Assembly: GCA_021846045.1 (NCBI GenBank)
Contig: JAJZCM010000005.1
Coordinates: forward strand, 1 to 62,436
DNA from: a bacterium
GTDB taxonomy: Bacteria > Elusimicrobiota > Elusimicrobia > UBA1565 > UBA9628
DNA: 62,436 nt
Direction of reading: 5' to 3'
The position numbers and the translations under genes were made by a program. The stretch's first letter is position 1, and every line of letters starts with the position of its first letter. Of this stretch, positions 5,172-51,721 are shown in pieces. The notes below the pieces were generated by a model, which was not told the DNA's origin, did not search any database, and saw nothing but the letters and a program-made list of their open reading frames with translations.

Positions 5172-6320
5172 ATGGGGAACCTTGAGATTTATCCCCCCTG
5201 GATCGTCACCTCCGCGACAGAACTTTCGGAAGTCGTCTCAGAAATAGAAAATTCTCCTCAGCTGGCGGTTGACATCGAATCCGACAGCTTTTACGCCTAC
5301 CGGGAACGGGTCTGCCTCATTCAAATTTCATCTCCCGCTAAAGACTACATCATCGATCCCCTGGCAATTCAAGATTTGTCTCCCTTGGGAAAAATCTTCT
5401 CAAACCCCGCCATGGAAAAAATCTTTCACGCCGGGGAATACGACGTCTTATGTCTTAAGCGCGACTACCAATTTGAATTTAGAAACCTCTTCGACACGAT
5501 GATCGCGGCGAGGTTTCTTGGAGAAAAAGAATTGGGGCTTAAAGCGGCGATTTCAAAACACTTTAAAATCGAACTTTGCAAAAAACATCAGCGAGCGGAT
5601 TGGGGAAAAAGGCCTTTGAGCGATGAGCAGCTGCGCTACGCTCAATTGGATACGCATTTCTTGATTTCTCTTTCGAACATCCAAAAAAAATCTCTATTTG
5701 AGCGTGAGCGCTTTGAAGACGCGAAGGAAGCCGCTGAAAGTTTATCCGCTCTTCAAGCGCAAATACGGCCCTTTGACGCCGAGGGATACCGCAAAATCAA
5801 GGGCCATCGAGATCTCTCGCCGGAAAGCCGCGGAATTCTCAAGGAGCTTTATCTCTGCCGGGAGGAAATTGCCCGGACCCGGAATAAGGCCCGGTTTCGA
5901 ATCATGAACGACGAGCTCCTCATTCAACTCGCAAAGGCATGTCCCAGAGACGTCTCCGAACTTGCCCCGATTAAAGGCATGACCCCTTATCTTCTCCAGG
6001 CTTTTGGCCGGCATATCGTCGACTGCGTCTTGCGTGGAGAAAAATCCCCAGAAACCCTCCTTCATTGTGCTGATGCAACCCGGGTCCGCCGCACGCCTCC
6101 CGAGGAAGTCAATCTCTTCGAAAAATTGCGCCTCTGGAGAAAAACCCGGGGTGAGACTGAAGGCCTCGACCCTGCGGCAATACTTTCAACAGAGCAACTA
6201 AAAGACATCGCCCATGCCCTTTGGAGCAAGAAAAAAGATGTTTTCCGCTCACTGAGTCCCTTGAAAAAAAACCGCTACGAGCAAAGCCTGCTCAAGTTCA
6301 TATCCTCCATTCAGGAATGA
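5172..6320 (+). CDS. rnd: Ribonuclease D (DEDDy 3'-5' exoribonuclease)
   Basis: RNase D trims the 3' ends of tRNA precursors and other structured RNAs. The DEDDy exonuclease domain has ExoI D34/E36 (AVDIES), ExoII within FHAGEYDVLCL, and ExoIII YAQLDTHFLI with the Tyr and Asp of the DEDDy type. An HRDC domain follows (about residues 205-290, SPESRGILKELYLCREEIARTRNK). At 382 residues it is normal length. The start abuts the glgP stop codon, so translational coupling is likely. No reason for the pairing with a glucan phosphorylase is apparent. Confidence 0.93.
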   Translation: MGNLEIYPPWIVTSATELSEVVSEIENSPQLAVDIESDSFYAYRERVCLIQISSPAKDYIIDPLAIQDLSPLGKIFSNPAMEKIFHAGEYDVLCLKRDYQFEFRNLFDTMIAARFLGEKELGLKAAISKHFKIELCKKHQRADWGKRPLSDEQLRYAQLDTHFLISLSNIQKKSLFERERFEDAKEAAESLSALQAQIRPFDAEGYRKIKGHRDLSPESRGILKELYLCREEIARTRNKARFRIMNDELLIQLAKACPRDVSELAPIKGMTPYLLQAFGRHIVDCVLRGEKSPETLLHCADATRVRRTPPEEVNLFEKLRLWRKTRGETEGLDPAAILSTEQLKDIAHALWSKKKDVFRSLSPLKKNRYEQSLLKFISSIQE

Positions 6321-6326
6321 TATAAT
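6321..6326 (+). promoter_or_regulatory. Consensus -10 (TATAAT) upstream of APC permease
   Basis: A perfect TATAAT overlaps the end of rnd. A start near 6333 would give a leader of about 60 nt holding the hairpin at 6340-6384. No convincing -35 was seen. Confidence 0.45.
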
Positions 6327-6339
6327 GAACTTGGAACTT

Positions 6340-6384
6340 TCTAAAAGCGAGCTAAGGCTCCGCCTAAAATAGCCCGCTTCTAGA
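6340..6384. promoter_or_regulatory. Long hairpin in the permease leader
   Basis: The arms TCTAAAAGCGAGCTA (6340-6354) and TAGCCCGCTTCTAGA (6370-6384) pair at 13 of 15 positions, and AGGC-TCC-GCCT stacks inside. The 3' arm ends 8 nt before ATG 6393 and overlaps the only weak Shine-Dalgarno-like AGAGAG, so folding could hide the ribosome site. The two mismatches would be G-U wobbles in minus-strand RNA, so sense is uncertain. No U-tract follows, so it is not a standard terminator. Confidence 0.5.
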
Positions 6385-6392
6385 GAGTTTCT

Positions 6393-8366
6393 ATGTTTCA
6401 AAAAATTAAACGCCTAGTCTTCGGGGAACCTCAAGACGTAAGAGACCCGCAAGTTTTTCATCGTATTTCCCTTGTTGCCTTTCTGGCCTGGATAGGGCTG
6501 GGAGCCGACGGCCTTTCATCCTCCTGCTACGGCCCCGATGAATCTTTTCGGGTTCTAGGCTCCAATCATTATCTGTTGATTCTCGTCGCCTTGGCGGTCG
6601 CTCTCAGCGTTTTCATCATCTCCTATGCCTATTCCCGTGTCATTGAGCATTTCCCATTTGGCGGCGGCGGCTATGTGGTCGCGACCAAACTTTTAGGACC
6701 CTCCTTTGGAATCGTCTCCGGATCAGCCCTTCTCATTGACTATATTCTGACCATCACCACCTCCATTGCGGCGGGAACCGACGCTTTTTTCAGTTTCCTG
6801 CCTTATTCCTATCAAGCGTGGAAATTCCCCCTTGAATTTTGCATCATCGGCTTTCTAGCCGGGCTTAACTTACGCGGCGTCAAGGAATCCGTCGAGGCGA
6901 TGATGCCGGTATTTTTATTTTTCATCCTAACTCATGTCGTTCTCATTTTCGGAACGATCGCGCTTAAACTCGGAGATTTCCCCACCGTTGCCCATCAAGT
7001 TCACGCCGGATTTACCAACGGAATAGCGACCATCGGATTCATGGGAATGGCGGCCATTTTTCTGCGTTCTTATTCCATGGGAGCCGGAACCTACACCGGT
7101 CTTGAAGCGGTCTCAAACGGACTGGCCATCATGCGGGAACCCAAGGTGGAAACGGGAAAAAGAACGATGACCTACATGGCGATTTCCCTGGCCGTTACGG
7201 CCGGCGGAATTCTCTTGGCGTATCTTCTCGTTCACGTGGAACCTATTCCCGGACAAACAATGAATGCCGCTCTATCAACCCGGTTCGTGGAATTATTAGG
7301 AATTTCCCCCGCTCTTGGGAAATGGTTCACCATTCCAACGCTTCTCTCGGAAGCGGCTCTTCTCTATGTCGCGGCTCAAACCGGTTTTATCGACGGCCCC
7401 CGGGTCATGGCTAATATGGCCCATGATTCCTGGCTTCCCCACCGGTTTTCGACCCTCTCCGACCGCTTAACGACCCAGGACGGAATTTTACTAATCTCCG
7501 GAGCCTCCGCCTTGATGCTTCTCTACGCGCGCGGCAACACGGAAACCTTGGTCTTGATGTACGCTATCAACGTGTTCATCACCTTCTGTTTAACGGAAGC
7601 GTCGATGATCCGCTTCTGGATTCATGGACGAAAGACCCATGCGGACTGGCAAAGAAAAATCAGCGTCCACATCATCGGCTTCTGTCTTTGTTTTTCGATC
7701 CTGACCATTAATACCGTTGAGAAATTCGCTCAAGGCGGATGGGTCACCCTCGTCACGACAGCCGCCTTGATCGGCCTTTGTTTTCTTATCAAAAACCATT
7801 ACGATTCTCTTCAAAAAGATTTTAAGCGCCTAGACGACATACTCACGAACCTCCCGCAATCGGAAAAGACCGATTTCCCCAAGACCGACCCTAAAGCCCC
7901 GACAGCGGTGATCCTAGTCGGCGGATACAGCGGACTCGGGGTTCACTGCATTCTTTCCATTCAGAAACTTTTTCCGAATTACTTCAAGAATTTTATTTTC
8001 ATCTCCATCGGGGTGGTCGACAGCGCTTCTTTTAAAGGCGTCCAAGCGGTCGAGGATGTGCAAAAAGAAACGGAGACGTCTCTCAAACGCTATGTGGCGC
8101 TCGCACACAGTTTCGGCTTCGCCGGCGATTTTCGCGTGGGCATCGGCACTGAAGTCGTCGCCGAAGCGGAAAAAATCTGCGTTGATCTCTCCAAAGAATA
8201 TCCGCGCGCCATTATTTTCGCCGGAAAGCTCATCTTCCAAAACGAACACTGGTTCCATCGCTTGCTTCACAATGAAACGGCCTATCAAATGCAAAAGCGC
8301 CTGCAGTTTTTAGGACTTAATTCGATGGTTCTCCCGGTGAGGGTCTTATCTTCGGTCGGAAACTAA
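6393..8366 (+). CDS. APC-superfamily amino-acid permease with C-terminal soluble domain
   Basis: A polytopic inner-membrane transporter of 657 residues. Residues about 20-470 show around 12 membrane segments and the APC N-terminal signature (AWIGLGADGLSSSCYGPDES). TYTGLEAVSNGLAIMREP is typical of the large APC transporters found in candidate phyla and planctomycetes. From about residue 500 a soluble domain follows (PTAVILVGGYSGLGVHCI, FIFISIGVVDS) resembling an alpha/beta nucleotide-binding or USP-like fold; that part is inference. The substrate is unassigned. It has its own TATAAT promoter and a hairpin leader. It converges with the symporter, whose stop lies 2 bp away on the other strand. 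Confidence 0.85.
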   Translation: MFQKIKRLVFGEPQDVRDPQVFHRISLVAFLAWIGLGADGLSSSCYGPDESFRVLGSNHYLLILVALAVALSVFIISYAYSRVIEHFPFGGGGYVVATKLLGPSFGIVSGSALLIDYILTITTSIAAGTDAFFSFLPYSYQAWKFPLEFCIIGFLAGLNLRGVKESVEAMMPVFLFFILTHVVLIFGTIALKLGDFPTVAHQVHAGFTNGIATIGFMGMAAIFLRSYSMGAGTYTGLEAVSNGLAIMREPKVETGKRTMTYMAISLAVTAGGILLAYLLVHVEPIPGQTMNAALSTRFVELLGISPALGKWFTIPTLLSEAALLYVAAQTGFIDGPRVMANMAHDSWLPHRFSTLSDRLTTQDGILLISGASALMLLYARGNTETLVLMYAINVFITFCLTEASMIRFWIHGRKTHADWQRKISVHIIGFCLCFSILTINTVEKFAQGGWVTLVTTAALIGLCFLIKNHYDSLQKDFKRLDDILTNLPQSEKTDFPKTDPKAPTAVILVGGYSGLGVHCILSIQKLFPNYFKNFIFISIGVVDSASFKGVQAVEDVQKETETSLKRYVALAHSFGFAGDFRVGIGTEVVAEAEKICVDLSKEYPRAIIFAGKLIFQNEHWFHRLLHNETAYQMQKRLQFLGLNSMVLPVRVLSSVGN

Positions 8367-12635: not shown

Positions 12636-12765
12636 AATCTCACTCCTTAATTTTCCTCTTAGACTAATCTAATACGCTTAAAAACGCAAAAAGTTCATCC
12701 GAACAGACTAGCATATTTCATGCGCCTAAATTTTACCTGCGGCCAGAGACCGGCAAGATTCCTTA

Positions 12766-13035
12766 AGGCGTTGTCAAGAAATAATATGAGCGATTTGGAA
12801 GCGCAAGCCTGCGCCGAATTCGAGACGCGAGGAGCAAGCATAGCTTGAGCTATGTGCGCGACGAGCAACGAAGAAGTCGGCCAGGATCGCGCTTCCCCTT
12901 CGGGGCCAGGCGATTTTGGGCTGCGACTTCGTCTCTCCTCGCTTACATACCGCAGAGGGTATGCTCGCTCGTCGTTTCTCGTCTCGCTCCAATCTTGCCT
13001 AGCCAAATCGCTCATATTATTCCTTGACAACGCCT
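12766..13035. repeat. Large palindromic element, copy A
   Basis: The ends are 33-bp inverted repeats (12766-12798 and 13003-13035) matching at 32 of 33 positions. The interior is a weaker inverted repeat: each half carries a small hairpin, CATAGCTTGAGCTATG at 12839-12854 on the left and CATACC-GCAGAG-GGTATG at 12946-12963 on the right. A CCCC-TTC-GGGG hairpin sits at the centre (about 12896-12905). About 87 bp (12904-12990, reversed) is close to 90% identical to copy B at 37757-37844. The short frames inside are not credible genes. The element occupies the gene-free stretch between dksA and gltX and supplies the gltX stop codon. Confidence 0.85.
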
Positions 13036-14463
13036 AAGCCTTTTAACGGCCTCCTCTCGCCCCATGACCTCGATCATTAAAAACAAGGTCGGACCGTCGG
13101 TTCGGCCCGAAACGGCCGCGCGAAGCGGATGGAAAACTTGCCCCGCCTTAAAGCCCTTTTCCTGGGCGTATTGGCGAACGGCGGCCTCGATTTCTTTTTC
13201 CTTAAAGGCAGGCAGATCCTGAAGACGAACAGACAAATCCTCAAGAATACGCAAGACATCAGGGCCGGAAAGGGATTTTTCCCGCGCTTGAGGCGTCATT
13301 TCAAGCGGCTTATAGAAAAAATCAACCAAACTCGGAATCTCGGTCAATTTCTTGTATTTTTGATGTTCCAAGGAAATCGCAGACTCAAGGGAAGGAGAAC
13401 CGGGAGCCGGCTTGATTCCGGCCCGGTCCAGAAAAGGCTGGGCGGCTAGAACGAGATCGGAAACCGGCATTTTTCGGATATATTCCCCGTTCATCCAGGT
13501 CAATTTGACGTTATCAAAGGTCGCGGGATTTTTCTGGCAGCCTTCAATGTCAAAGCTTGAGATGAGTTCATCATAGGAGAACAAGTCCTGGGAATTTTTA
13601 GTCGCCCATCCCAAAAGTGCAAGATAGTTTCTCAAGGCTCCGGGAATAAAGCCCTCATTTTTGTATTCCAGAACCGAAGTCGCCCCGTGGCGCTTTGAAA
13701 GTTTAGCTCCATCCGGCCCCAAGATCATTGATAAGTGGGCAAAAACCGGAGGAGCCCATCCCAAGGCTTCATAAAGCCTCAACTGGGATGGAGTGTTGGA
13801 CAAATGCTCGTCTCCTCGAATCACGTGGCTGATCTCCATTAGATGGTCGTCAATCACGCAGGCAAAATTGTACGTTGGAACCCCGCTGGTCTTGATAATG
13901 ACGAAATCTTGAAGGAGATTGTTCTCAAAAGAAACCTTGCCTCGAATCAAATCATCCACCACCGTTGTTCCGGAATCCGGCATCTTAAAGCGTATTGAGT
14001 ATTTCTTTCCGGCTGAATCGTATCCTTTCTTCTCCTGGTCGGTCAGGTTTCGGCATCTCCTATCGTAGCGGGGCGGGCGTTTTTCCAAAGCGGCCAAGCG
14101 GCGCATCTCGTCTAAATCTTCCTTTGAACAATAGCAACGGTAAGCCTTTCCGTCCCGCATCAATTGATCTAGGAATTTCTTGTAGATATCCAAGCGCTGC
14201 ATCTGGAAATACGGCTTATACGGCCCTTCGCTCAGTAGACTGTCCTTGGGGCCCTCGTCCCAATTGAGCCCCAGCCAGTGAAGGGAATCTAAAATGGCTT
14301 GAACTGAGTCCTCGGTGGACCTCACCTCATCGGTGTCTTCGATTCTAAGGACAAAAGAACCTTTATGTTTTCTCGCAAAAAGCCAGTTAAAAAGAGCCGT
14401 ACGCGCGCCGCCAATATGAAGAAATCCCGTCGGAGACGGAGCAAAACGAGTTCTGATTTTCAT
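13012..14463 (-). CDS. gltX: Glutamyl-tRNA synthetase
   Basis: A class-I aminoacyl-tRNA synthetase charging tRNA-Glu. The 483 residues are the usual bacterial length. The HIGH-type motif is PTGFLHIGGARTAL (residues 11-24), and the KMSKS-type motif is KLSKRHG near residue 253. The C-terminal helical anticodon-binding domain is present. GGAG precedes ATG with a 7-nt spacer. The last codons (CQGII) and the TGA stop come from the right arm of palindromic element A, so the original C-terminus probably ended a few residues earlier or differently. It lies downstream of recN, separated by a 66-bp tandem repeat. Confidence 0.96.
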   Translation of the reverse strand: MKIRTRFAPSPTGFLHIGGARTALFNWLFARKHKGSFVLRIEDTDEVRSTEDSVQAILDSLHWLGLNWDEGPKDSLLSEGPYKPYFQMQRLDIYKKFLDQLMRDGKAYRCYCSKEDLDEMRRLAALEKRPPRYDRRCRNLTDQEKKGYDSAGKKYSIRFKMPDSGTTVVDDLIRGKVSFENNLLQDFVIIKTSGVPTYNFACVIDDHLMEISHVIRGDEHLSNTPSQLRLYEALGWAPPVFAHLSMILGPDGAKLSKRHGATSVLEYKNEGFIPGALRNYLALLGWATKNSQDLFSYDELISSFDIEGCQKNPATFDNVKLTWMNGEYIRKMPVSDLVLAAQPFLDRAGIKPAPGSPSLESAISLEHQKYKKLTEIPSLVDFFYKPLEMTPQAREKSLSGPDVLRILEDLSVRLQDLPAFKEKEIEAAVRQYAQEKGFKAGQVFHPLRAAVSGRTDGPTLFLMIEVMGREEAVKRLRRCQGII

Positions 14464-14474
14464 TATTTTCTCCC

Positions 14475-14606
14475 TGCGTTCTTTGTTCGCGAAGCGAAAG
14501 CGTGCCGGGGCATCTCTTGGAAAGACGTTATGCCTCGGTCTGCGTTCCTTGTTCGCGAAGCGAAAGCGTGCCGAAGCATCTTAAGGAAAGACGTTATGCT
14601 TTGGCC
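14475..14606. repeat. Two tandem copies of a 66-bp unit (plus a partial third)
   Basis: Units 14475-14540 and 14541-14606 share TGCGTTC, TTCGCGAAGCGAAAGCG and GGAAAGACGTTATGC; a third begins at 14607 and breaks off. TTCGC-GAA-GCGAA inside the unit can form a small hairpin. The repeat covers the recN-gltX gap and the last codons of recN. Sixty-six bp is a multiple of three, so copy-number change would not shift a frame. Confidence 0.8.
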
Positions 14607-24952: not shown

Positions 24953-24962
24953 CGCTCCGGTT

Positions 24963-25081
24963 CGTCATTCCGGCACAAGCCGGAATCCGACCGAGCGTAG
25001 GCGCGGAAGTGCCGCTTCCAAGTTTGTTGAAGAGCGGCCAGAAGATCTCTACCATGGACCCCGACTTTCGTCGGGGTGACG
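24963..25081. repeat. Dispersed double-hairpin repeat (copy 1)
   Basis: ATTCCGGC-acaa-GCCGGAAT at the left and CCCCGACTTTCGTCGGGG at the right end, bounded by CGTCA...TGACG. The arms are separated by a unique spacer. Four related copies occur in the window. Confidence 0.8.
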
Positions 25082-25093
25082 CGGGTATTTGGG

Positions 25094-31274: not shown

Positions 31275-31372
31275 CGTCCGCTACCCTCCCGCCTTACTGA
31301 ATCGGCATATCCTGCCGTAGTCGCACCCGACTCCCGCGTTCGGTCGTCACTCCGGCGCTTCCTCCGTCGTCG

Positions 31373-31475
31373 CCCCGACGAAAGTCGGGGTCTAGGCCGG
31401 ACGCTTCCGTCTTATTTGCAGTCGGCCCAAATAAATCCTACGCGCGAGTCTGGATTCCGGCTTTCGCCGGAATGA
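31373..31475. repeat. Dispersed double-hairpin repeat (copy 2)
   Basis: CCCCGACGAAAGTCGGGG (31373-31390) and ATTCCGGC-tttc-GCCGGAAT with TGACG (to 31475). Orientation is reversed relative to copy 1. It fills the gap between the M16 protease stop and the nuclease-like gene (31275-31540), where no gene is seen. Confidence 0.8.
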
Positions 31476-31540
31476 CGATTACCAGAAAAACATCTTTCAA
31501 GGGCCTCTCGTCGATAATGGCACCGATTTTTTGGCCTCTG

Positions 31541-34336
31541 TTAATTTTTCGGGGCCGGGCCCTCGACAATCTCGGCCATATCCGACGGGTGAAGCCATTC
31601 GGAAAAAGCCCGGCGAACATCCTCGGCTTTTAAGTCCACATAAATTTTGGCCGCGCGCTCGGGCTCATCGAGCGCAAGCCCGAACCTCGACAAATAAAGC
31701 CACTTAGAAGCCACTCCGTCGAAGCTGGCTTCCCCCAAGGGAATCCCGCGCAGCAGCAGAATTTTTCCCTGTCTCAACTCTTCCGGGCTGACATACTTTT
31801 TTTGCATAGCCGCGATGTCATTTAAAGCCAGGGTCTTGGCCTTTAAAGCCTTATCTGGATCGGAACCGTAAACGATCCGGTACGTTGACCGAACCCTCCC
31901 CGCATCCCAATAGGAATTGGCCGCGTAAGCCAACCCCGTCTTTTTCCGAAGATCTAAACTCAACCTTGAGGCGTAAAAAGCTCCCCCGAGAATTTCATTT
32001 CCCAAATTGAGGGCGTAATAATTCGGAGAAAGGCGGTTCATTCCCACCGTTTGAATCAAAACAACCTTGTCTTGAAGACGGCTTGAGTCGGGAATATTAA
32101 TCTTGGAGAAACGATTGTCCGGGACGCGCGGATACTCGATGTTCGGTTTAGCCCCTGCGGCTTTCCAGGAACCGAAATAGCGCTCAATCACGGTTTTTGC
32201 CTTTTGGGGATCGACTTGGCCGATCACCACAATCGTCGTCATGTCCGGACGAAAAACCTTGTGATAATATTGTTTGACGTCGTTGAGACTCAAATCCGCC
32301 GCCGTCTTCGGCGTCGCCTCGCGCAAAATTGGATCGGTTTTAGGATAAAGCGCCTTATCAATCGCCCGTCCCGTCAAATAATCCGGACTTTGGAGTTCTC
32401 CTACGAGTTCGGCAGACACTTCGTGGCGAATAATTTTAAAATCGCCCTTGGGAAGAGCCGGAGACAATTCATTTTGAGCCAATAACTTGACTCCATCCTC
32501 AAAATGCTTTGAAAGGACATTGAGAGAGAAATCCGTTCCGGCGCTCTCATCCGCGGCAATGTCATCCAAGGCCTTTTGAAACGCGATCCGGTCGAGACTC
32601 CTGCTTCCATAGGGGAAAAGCTCTCCCAAGACCCGGTCCACCCCTTCTTTCCCTAAGGCAGTTTCGGTGTCAGGATTGGACATGATATGTCCCATAATTG
32701 AAACAGTGGGGCTGATTGTCTCAGGTTGCACAATCAGCTCAATGCCGTTGGACAAGCGGCTGACGATCGGGTGAAGCGTTAGGGGAGGAATCGCGAGGCT
32801 TTCGACCTCCTTTTTGGCCCACGGCGGAAGCGGCACGGCTTTAACGGAGGAGGAGGCAAAAGATTCCTGCCCGCCAAAACCTTTTCCCGACACCGGCTTT
32901 CCCGAAGGCTGCGGAGTCAAAATAGCGGAAACGGCATGATCAAAATCGATATATTTTTTCGCCACGCGGGCAACATCTTCGGCAGTCACCTTCTTGATCG
33001 CCTCGATATCCTCATCGGGAGACCGCCGCCCTTCTCCAGCCACAGCCTCGGACCACTCCATCGCGAGGCCCTCAATCGAATTTTTCTGGAATTCGGCCGC
33101 GGCCTCCTCACGGCGTTTTGCGGCGGCGACAAAATCAGGGTTAATTCCCTTTGATAATTGTTCTTTCAAAACCGCCTTGACTTTTTTCAACAGATTTTTG
33201 GAATTAGCGCCTTTGGGAAACCCCGCAATCGCAAAACCAATTCCGGCCTTGGGAAGGCCTTCATAGGAAAATCCCGCGAAAAGCGCATCTCCCTTCACTT
33301 GAAGCTCATAAAGGGGACCCCGAGGATTGGACAAGGCATCTGAAAGAATCTGCACTGCGGCATAGTCCGGGCTGTCTGAGCCTGGAAAGCGGAAGGCAAA
33401 AGCGGCCATCCCGTAGGGGCTGTCCGTATTTATTGCTTCAAAAGAGGCTTTGACGGGATTGAAATTAAAATCGGGGCGTTTCGGCATCTCAATCCTGGGA
33501 ATTTTTCCAAATAATCGGCTTACGGTTTTGAAAGTCTCATTTGGATTGAGGTCTCCCGCAATGACCAAAATCGCGTTGTTGGGGCCGTACCAATCCTTAT
33601 GAAACCGTCCAAGCGCCTGGGCGGTCGTCTTATCAAAAGAGGGGCGAGTCCCCAATGCGTCATGCTCGTATGGAGTCCCTTTAAAAAGGAATTTAAGGAG
33701 CTTGACGTAAAAAACGTATTCCGGGCTTGAGAGATCGCGGGACACTTCCTGCTCAATGGCGCCGCGCTCTTTATCCCAGGATGATTTTTTAGCTGAGATC
33801 GCGCGCATTCTGAGCGACTCGATATGTAAAACCGTATCCAAATACTGGGACGGAACCGTGTAGAAATACTGCGTCAGATTTTGCTGGGTGTCGGCGTTAA
33901 GCCGCCCGCCCACATCCGCGCCGATTTCGGCCAATTGGTCGGCGGAAATTCCAGGGCTTCCGCGAAACATCATGTGTTCCATCGCATGCGCCGTTCCGGG
34001 GAAATCCGCCGGAACCTCATCGGAACCGACCTTGTAGTTCACAACGCTGGTCACCACCGGAGACAACGGATTATAGACGATAATCACTTGCAGGCCGTTT
34101 TCGAGCGTCTTTCTGAAAACCTGTCCGGCGGATATATTCGCCCCTTGGGCCAAACAGGGAATCAACAAAGAAACAATCGCCATCCACATACGGCCCCAAT
34201 GATTTCGCAACTGCTCAGGTTCGTCATTCCGGCGAAAGCCGAAATCCAAAAGTTCAATGCTCTGGACCCCGACTTTCGTCGGGGTGACGTGAGTAGTTAC
34301 CTTATTTATTCTCAAACTCTTATTTTGATTTTTCAT
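31541..34336 (-). CDS. M16-family zinc protease (two-domain), exported
   Basis: A pitrilysin-type metallopeptidase containing two M16 units. The N-terminal one has the inverted zinc motif GTAHAMEHMMFRGSPG (HxxEH); the C-terminal half (from VSRLSNGIELIVQPETISPT) lacks it and is the usual inactive partner. ATG 34336 has a good AAGGAG six nt upstream and follows the hemA stop by 13 bp, giving 931 residues. However, a dispersed repeat (34222-34289) encodes about residues 16-38, ahead of the signal-like MWMAIVSLLIPCLAQGA. ATG 34189 (882 residues) would start right at that signal peptide and may be the functional start. Probably periplasmic. Confidence 0.9.
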   Translation of the reverse strand: MKNQNKSLRINKVTTHVTPTKVGVQSIELLDFGFRRNDEPEQLRNHWGRMWMAIVSLLIPCLAQGANISAGQVFRKTLENGLQVIIVYNPLSPVVTSVVNYKVGSDEVPADFPGTAHAMEHMMFRGSPGISADQLAEIGADVGGRLNADTQQNLTQYFYTVPSQYLDTVLHIESLRMRAISAKKSSWDKERGAIEQEVSRDLSSPEYVFYVKLLKFLFKGTPYEHDALGTRPSFDKTTAQALGRFHKDWYGPNNAILVIAGDLNPNETFKTVSRLFGKIPRIEMPKRPDFNFNPVKASFEAINTDSPYGMAAFAFRFPGSDSPDYAAVQILSDALSNPRGPLYELQVKGDALFAGFSYEGLPKAGIGFAIAGFPKGANSKNLLKKVKAVLKEQLSKGINPDFVAAAKRREEAAAEFQKNSIEGLAMEWSEAVAGEGRRSPDEDIEAIKKVTAEDVARVAKKYIDFDHAVSAILTPQPSGKPVSGKGFGGQESFASSSVKAVPLPPWAKKEVESLAIPPLTLHPIVSRLSNGIELIVQPETISPTVSIMGHIMSNPDTETALGKEGVDRVLGELFPYGSRSLDRIAFQKALDDIAADESAGTDFSLNVLSKHFEDGVKLLAQNELSPALPKGDFKIIRHEVSAELVGELQSPDYLTGRAIDKALYPKTDPILREATPKTAADLSLNDVKQYYHKVFRPDMTTIVVIGQVDPQKAKTVIERYFGSWKAAGAKPNIEYPRVPDNRFSKINIPDSSRLQDKVVLIQTVGMNRLSPNYYALNLGNEILGGAFYASRLSLDLRKKTGLAYAANSYWDAGRVRSTYRIVYGSDPDKALKAKTLALNDIAAMQKKYVSPEELRQGKILLLRGIPLGEASFDGVASKWLYLSRFGLALDEPERAAKIYVDLKAEDVRRAFSEWLHPSDMAEIVEGPAPKN
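34222..34289. repeat. Dispersed double-hairpin repeat (copy 3), within M16 gene start
   Basis: ATTCCGGC-gaaa-GCCGAAAT and CCCCGACTTTCGTCGGGG bounded by CGTCA...TGACG. It is read in frame in the protease N-terminus. The flank GTGAGTAGTT is shared with the copy at the window's right edge. Confidence 0.85.
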
Positions 34337-37702: not shown

Positions 37703-37711
37703 GCCGCCTTA

Positions 37712-37999
37712 AGGGCTCGCAACGAAATAATAGGACCAACTGGCCAAGGCGATTTTGGAGCGAGACGAGGAACGAAGAGCGAGCATACCCTCTGCGGTAT
37801 GTAAGCGATGAGTGACGAAGTCGCAGCCCAAAAGCGCCCTGGCCCTCTCGTCGAAAAAACGCGTGAGTGGAGGCCCATCTTCGGCCAATTTCTTTGTTGC
37901 TCCTCATTCACATAGCTTAAGCTATGCTCATTCGTCGCGCCTCGAAATTGTCTCAAATCTGGGTCTCCCAGTTGCTCCTATTATTTCGTTGCGAGCCCT
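37712..37999. repeat. Large palindromic element, copy B
   Basis: Terminal inverted repeats 37712-37743 and 37968-37999 match at 31 of 32 positions. Inside are CATACC-CTCTGC-GGTATG (37785-37802) and CATAGCTTAAGCTATG (about 37911-37926). It is homologous to copy A in the opposite orientation along its whole length, but its terminal arms have a different sequence. Only the AATAATA core and a few bases (GAGC, TGG ends) are shared. It fills the gene-free gap between pgk and resB; small frames inside are not credible. Confidence 0.85.
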
Positions 38000-38009
38000 A
38001 AGCTTTTAC

Positions 38010-51616: not shown

Positions 51617-51651
51617 TCCCTAGTATAGTGCGTCATAAATTCCTTTACATT

Positions 51652-51721
51652 CGTCACCCCGACGAAAGTCGGGGTCAGGGCCCGCGTAAAAGATTGGATT
51701 CCGGCTTTCGCCGGAATGACG
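51652..51721. repeat. Dispersed double-hairpin repeat (copy 4)
   Basis: CCCCGACGAAAGTCGGGG then ATTCCGGC-tttc-GCCGGAAT, bounded by CGTCA...TGACG. It sits between rpmE and prfA, so it could also act as a transcript end for rpmE. Confidence 0.85.

Follow-up and report, generated by a model that had tools for sequence, protein, structure and literature searches.

The window, meaning the whole stretch of 62,436 nucleotides analyzed here, carries two copies of a palindromic element (Table 1). Copy A lies between pgk and resB. The same pgk-resB junction has no insert in three congeners (G001, G002, and G004), where the spacer has diverged, so that an empty site cannot be defined base by base. The fold of the window element is strong (z −8.9).

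Within each copy, the two terminal arms are nearly perfect complements of each other. The counts of 32/33 and 31/32 given in the initial annotation were borne out, albeit with the labels exchanged, since copy A, at 37712-37999, is the one with 31/32 and copy B the one with 32/33. The same annotation held that the arms of the two copies have nothing in common beyond AGG, AATAATA, and a few more bases. This proved too low an estimate: the arms align with identities at 22 of 32 positions, sharing GAAATAATA, GA, C, and TGG, and judging from this alignment, they are homologous but divergent rather than unrelated. The interiors of copies A and B are identical at 169 of 207 positions (82%).

Other repeats also occur in the window. 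Those at 24954-25090, 31367-31478, 34213-34298, and 51651-51721 belong to another family, of short CGTC-flanked palindromic repeats (CGTCATTCCGGCGAAAGCCGGAATCCA, CGTCACCCCGACGAAAGTCGGGGTC), possibly akin to the CGTC-tagged repeats of PMC3733652. A 66-bp unit is tandemly duplicated at 14474-14605, with 86% identity.

Table 1. Features of the two element copies in the window
Feature	Position	Strand	Remarks
Element body, copy A	37713..37998	.	286 bp, palindromic, without coding content
Surroundings, copy A	pgk stop 38010, resB start 37702	both genes minus	copy A in between
Left terminal arm, copy A	37712..37743	+	32 nt, AGGGCTCGCAACGAAATAATAGGACCAACTGG
Right terminal arm, copy A	37968..37999	-	31/32 complementary to left arm
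Left target-site duplication, copy A	37710..37712	.	TAA
Right target-site duplication, copy A	37999..38001	.	TAA
Core hairpin 1, copy A	37760..37826	+	tandem G·A stem; model R1, 38.2 bits, E 9.9e-9; weaker core type
Core hairpin 2, copy A	37884..37950	-	folds on minus strand; model R1, 68.7 bits, E 1.2e-17
Element body, copy B	12767..13034	.	268 bp
Arms, copy B	12766-12798 / 13003-13035		33 nt, 32 matches
Left target-site duplication, copy B	12764..12766	.	TAA
Right target-site duplication, copy B	13035..13037	.	TAA
Core hairpin, copy B	12815..12881	+	model R1, 64.6 bits, E 1.9e-16
Second core hairpin, copy B	12921..12987	- (opposite strand)	29.6 bits, E 3.2e-6

Anatomy and distribution of the element

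In this Elusimicrobia genome and its relatives, the element is multi-copy, 160-390 bp long, and non-coding, with terminal arms of about 32 bp. Individual copies measure 158-383 bp, and only short open reading frames, overlapping one another in several frames, cross them. The window's genome (2.0 Mb in 93 contigs) holds about 18 long copies. Across the class, matches to the element were found in 36 of the 97 genomes searched, and copy number varies between congeners. The element body begins with GG and finishes with CC. Of 55 scorable copies, 44 have the same TWA triplet on either side of the body (TAA/TAA in 25, TTA/TTA in 19) and about two have a mixed pair; because one subfamily in one orientation shows both TAA and TTA, the triplet derives from the target. 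Terminal inverted repeats are present in 83 Elusimicrobia copies and in at least 88 distinct arm pairs of a multi-phylum set. These features fit the description of prokaryotic MITEs (PMC10969869), except that the element is not AT-rich throughout. The arms are the terminal inverted repeats of a MITE-like, non-autonomous transposable element.

Partial and composite forms were seen as well. In the window's genome, at least 16 arms stand alone, with no partner (L076-L091), and are perhaps relics of palindrome deletion; two arm ends (in L091 and L092) lead directly to sequence starting with ATG. Elements of the relative G051 (L308-L322) have discrete lengths of 168, 229, 274, 331, and 388 bp, target triplets included, the steps between them reflecting extra inserts of ~57 bp (two small hairpins each) and internal deletions. 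Other two-hairpin inserts, of the GTCCCGAAC...GTTCGGGAC type, are nested in elements of G054 and G019 (L323, L324, and L325) and are perhaps REP-like. At about positions 140-196 of L330, an element of ~57 bp consists of two arms alone, with the interior absent.

Matched arms and their exchange

The 83 Elusimicrobia copies fall into 38 arm families. Mismatch between the arms of one copy is 4.9%, compared with a left-against-right difference of 36% between families, so that the pattern first noted in the window, of arms complementary within copies and different between them, holds over the whole set. Arm agreement was 0.951, against a maximum of 0.736 in 100,000 re-pairings, none of which reached the observed value, and the matching is not due to chance. 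Because these 83 copies were partly or mostly selected through their matched arms, unmatched copies are under-counted; two further copies, L229 and L334, have clearly unmatched arms.

A covariation check of the kind proposed in the initial annotation was positive. In an alignment of 34 sequences, double changes are found at 28 of 30 arm pairs, with 263 such cells compared to 66 ± 7 in shuffles, the nulls throughout being shuffles and slid controls that ignore kinship rather than a phylogeny-aware null. Pairing holds in 94.9% of arm cells (66.7% in shuffles), and the arm covariation score is 0.708 (0.180 when shuffled, 0.075-0.120 when slid).

Two comparisons of close copies expose how such differences arise. 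L318 and L319, from one genome, have 10 differences over 265 interior positions (96% identical) and arms that are 63% alike; in both arms, about positions 6 to 24 have been replaced by another self-matching pair. In the window's genome, L008 and L010 have 8 differences over 207 interior positions (again 96% identical) and arms that are 62-69% alike. Arm pairs therefore swap as blocks, and this block exchange is not stepwise compensation. Other copies combine or duplicate arm sequence. The two with clearly unmatched arms are hybrids whose arms come from two families, L229 being matched at 25 of 33 positions with unequal flanking triplets and L334 at 25 of 32 with TAA on both sides, and L322 is a perfect 162-bp palindrome, that is, one half followed by its own complement. 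Recombination and copying of the kinds that these three elements represent are plausible routes of arm change.

Matched change on both sides had been taken to imply selection for pairing or repeated gene conversion between arms. The matched two-sided change is upheld by our data, as stepwise compensation and continuous gene conversion are not. The matching ends are real and reflect the movement and the folding of the element. A shared transposase would by itself call for matching ends.

The folded core and its strand

In the consensus fold of the Elusimicrobia elements, two long hairpins are enclosed by a helix of the arms. To call the interior conserved in primary sequence, as was done at the outset, is correct as far as sequence goes but incomplete, because 43 of 55 interior pairs also show double changes (245 such cells versus 59 in shuffles), and the interior is thus conserved in structure as well as in sequence. 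It contains one or two hairpins with tandem G·A mismatches. Across phyla, there is a one-hairpin class of elements of ~160-170 bp and a two-hairpin class of ~265-290 bp.

A scan for the core motif found at least 118 stretches. The core-bearing records listed are named as Elusimicrobia, Myxococcales, Acidobacteria, Verrucomicrobia, Planctomycetota, Omnitrophota, Gemmatimonadales, Chitinophagales, Burkholderiales, Pseudomonadales, and others. The number of phyla with the core is about ten or more, and the arms around it differ: at least 88 distinct matched arm pairs, many of them quite dissimilar, flank the core stretches. Termini of the AGG kind go with TWA duplications, and those of the TAGTG kind go with TA or CTAG. 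Among the 111 distinct cores listed, the base pair between the two tandem G·A motifs is C-G in 56, G-C in 51, and G-G in 4, hence complementary in 107 of 111, under a search pattern that permitted C or G independently on each side of this central pair. The pair adjoining the G·A stem is G·T in 44 and A·C in 1 of the cores listed. A covariance model of the cores recovered the two hairpins of copy A and those of copy B, one per strand, the strongest E values not being independent, as the model was trained in part on Elusimicrobia sequences. It gave 35 hits in the window's genome, and of 150 genomes from the phylum, 25 had hits.

When the arms of the one-hairpin elements are read on the purine-rich strand, 35 mismatches are G·T and 8 are A·C (p 4e-5), or 29 and 7 when one element is taken per arm start, and the inner stems on the same strand have 77 G·T and 35 A·C. 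The excess of G·T over A·C indicates that one strand folds, as RNA or as single-stranded DNA; one particular strand of the one-hairpin elements is folded, arms included. In 34 of 34 cases, it is also the purine-rich strand that folds more stably, to which its built-in G·A and G·T contribute. The wobble bias is unlikely to stem from transcription-coupled mutation, since neighboring genes have no fixed direction (5 to 8, with approximate ORF calling). Because G·T is a preferred pair, RNA would seem favored over single-stranded DNA.

The two-hairpin elements have no clear bias, with 27 G·T to 25 A·C in the Elusimicrobia arms and 19 to 12 in a further count, as would be expected of elements that carry one core per strand and are strand-symmetric. 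The equal counts in the Elusimicrobia arms were considered as evidence against folding and dropped for this reason. Selection for pairing, one of the two causes named initially, draws independent support from the one-hairpin relatives but none from Elusimicrobia copies of the window's type.

Many one-hairpin elements (e.g., L109, L115, L118, L193, and L213) lie no more than a few bases from where a reading frame ends, and a TA, TAG, or TAA target at such ends may restore the stop codon.

Mobilization, alternatives, and known systems

A candidate transposase partner occurs in Cupriavidus sp. IDO, which has an intact IS630-family element of 1.16 kb encoding a 363-aa DDE_3 protein. Its 15-bp end, TAGTGTCCTGTTCCG, is the outer arm start of 164-bp core elements in the same genome. 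Neither the window's genome nor the matches listed from 57 genomes contained an autonomous element with the present arms, and no arm-bounded element of >400 bp was among the matches listed for relatives. IS630 duplicates a 2-bp TA and IS5-type elements duplicate TNA; the Elusimicrobia copies have a 3-bp TWA rather than the 2-bp TA, and copies with TA or CTAG are found in other phyla. Other candidate partners were rejected: the IS630 remnants of the window's own genome have other ends (TACTAATCAGTCC), an IS5-type transposase (PF13586) is absent from the element-rich genomes G000, G001, G005, G006, G051, and G054, and DDE_Tnp_1 (PF01609) is absent from the window's own genome.

The explanation we consider probable is that of a MITE-like element with matched terminal inverted repeats, arm pairs swapped as blocks, and a folded core that matters in its life cycle. 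One DDE-type transposase would act on both ends, so that the arms match each other. Ectopic recombination between copies would give rise to hybrid arms, and template switching within a hairpin could turn the second arm into a complementary copy of the first, a step based on one perfect palindrome (L322). The transposase would then amplify mainly those copies that have a matched pair. The core would be retained for a role of the folded strand in the life cycle, the likelier form being RNA rather than single-stranded DNA. A broader proposal, to which we give slightly less than an even chance, is that a single folded passenger core, as RNA or single-stranded DNA, has spread across many phyla between exchangeable pairs of transposon ends, parasitizing a different transposase from lineage to lineage, with one-strand folding, including that of the arms, as part of its propagation.

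Several other explanations can be weighed against these. If a transposase simply needed two equal ends and single-strand folding had no role, the target-site duplications and the IS630-like ends would be accounted for, as would the lack of G·T preference in the arm mismatches of the Elusimicrobia two-hairpin elements; end recognition would not be expected, however, to produce the G·T excess of the one-hairpin arms and inner stems or the covariation of the core pair between the two G·A tandems, and we regard this account as unlikely. Movement as a folded single DNA strand, in which an enzyme would see the arm duplex and arm sequence would matter little, seems improbable. It agrees with arms that are the most variable part yet complementary, with the folding of one strand, and with the absence of gene-orientation bias. 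Even so, direct TWA or CTAG/TA duplications suit double-strand DDE integration, recognition of arm sequence is suggested by the grouping of copies into families whose arms are nearly identical, and the outer 15 bp of the Cupriavidus arms are those of an IS630 end.

It is quite unlikely that continuous gene conversion or quasi-palindrome correction equalizes the arms, with no role for transposase or folding. The perfect palindrome L322 and the arms-only palindrome L330 are what such correction might leave behind, but the same two arm mismatches recur in, and so persist through, several subfamily-D insertions (L010, L012, and L013), and both the target-site duplications and the strand bias would go unexplained. 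Very unlikely, finally, is a regulatory or stable structured RNA selected by the host, whose dispersed copies have ends that merely resemble transposon ends. A strong fold, covariation in arms and interior, and a strand-specific wobble bias are all to be expected of such an RNA. Precise TWA duplications are not, nor are copy numbers that differ between congeners, an orthologous locus that is empty in three of them, two opposite-strand cores within one element, or the lack of orientation preference with respect to neighboring genes.

No Rfam family was matched by the window or by 18 other loci, with either gathering or permissive thresholds; the non-tRNA hits consisted of Acido-Lenti-1 in L205 alone, at 6037-7709, away from the core match. 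Plasmids and phages gave no whole-element match, and none of 2.9 million viral contigs matched the core pattern. A literature search by motif and keywords, whose scope did not extend to subscription literature or ISfinder, found no paper describing the element. If confirmed, this is a widespread and apparently unnamed structured element: its ends swap as matched pairs, and its middle, a structured hairpin, has been preserved across phyla, with covariation that extends to a base pair held between G·A tandems. It would then be possible to test whether selection acts on transposon-borne hairpins as RNA or as single-stranded DNA, and how mini-transposons switch transposase.

Among known systems, REPs and REPINs, which have RAYT transposases, are GTAG- or CGTC-tagged repeats with units of 20-40 bp (PMC3733652). 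They resemble the present elements in being palindromic multi-copy hairpins outside genes; the latter differ in having long matched arms and target duplications, of which REPs and REPINs have none. ERIC/IRU, Correia, and RUP sequences are small intergenic palindromic non-autonomous elements whose ends are conserved between copies; smallness and palindromy are thus shared with our elements, and conserved ends are not. Integron attC sites act as a folded strand whose structure is conserved while its sequence varies. This is a common feature, but the elements described here have direct target duplications at both ends.

A further likeness is to MITEs of the IS630/Tc1-mariner type, given a length of <500 bp, no ORF, terminal inverted repeats, a TA-containing duplication, multiple copies, and a strong stem-loop, together with Cupriavidus arms that carry the outer 15 bp of a resident IS630. 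Unlike those MITEs, the Elusimicrobia copies have a 3-bp TWA and no autonomous partner found there. To our knowledge, MITE families vary least at their ends, and the usual mini-transposon retains its ends as its middle is lost; in the present elements, variation is greatest in the arms, which are swapped in pairs, and the core hairpin is conserved across phyla behind different arms. In sum, the element is a MITE by anatomy and is unusual in its variable paired ends and in a folded core common to many phyla.
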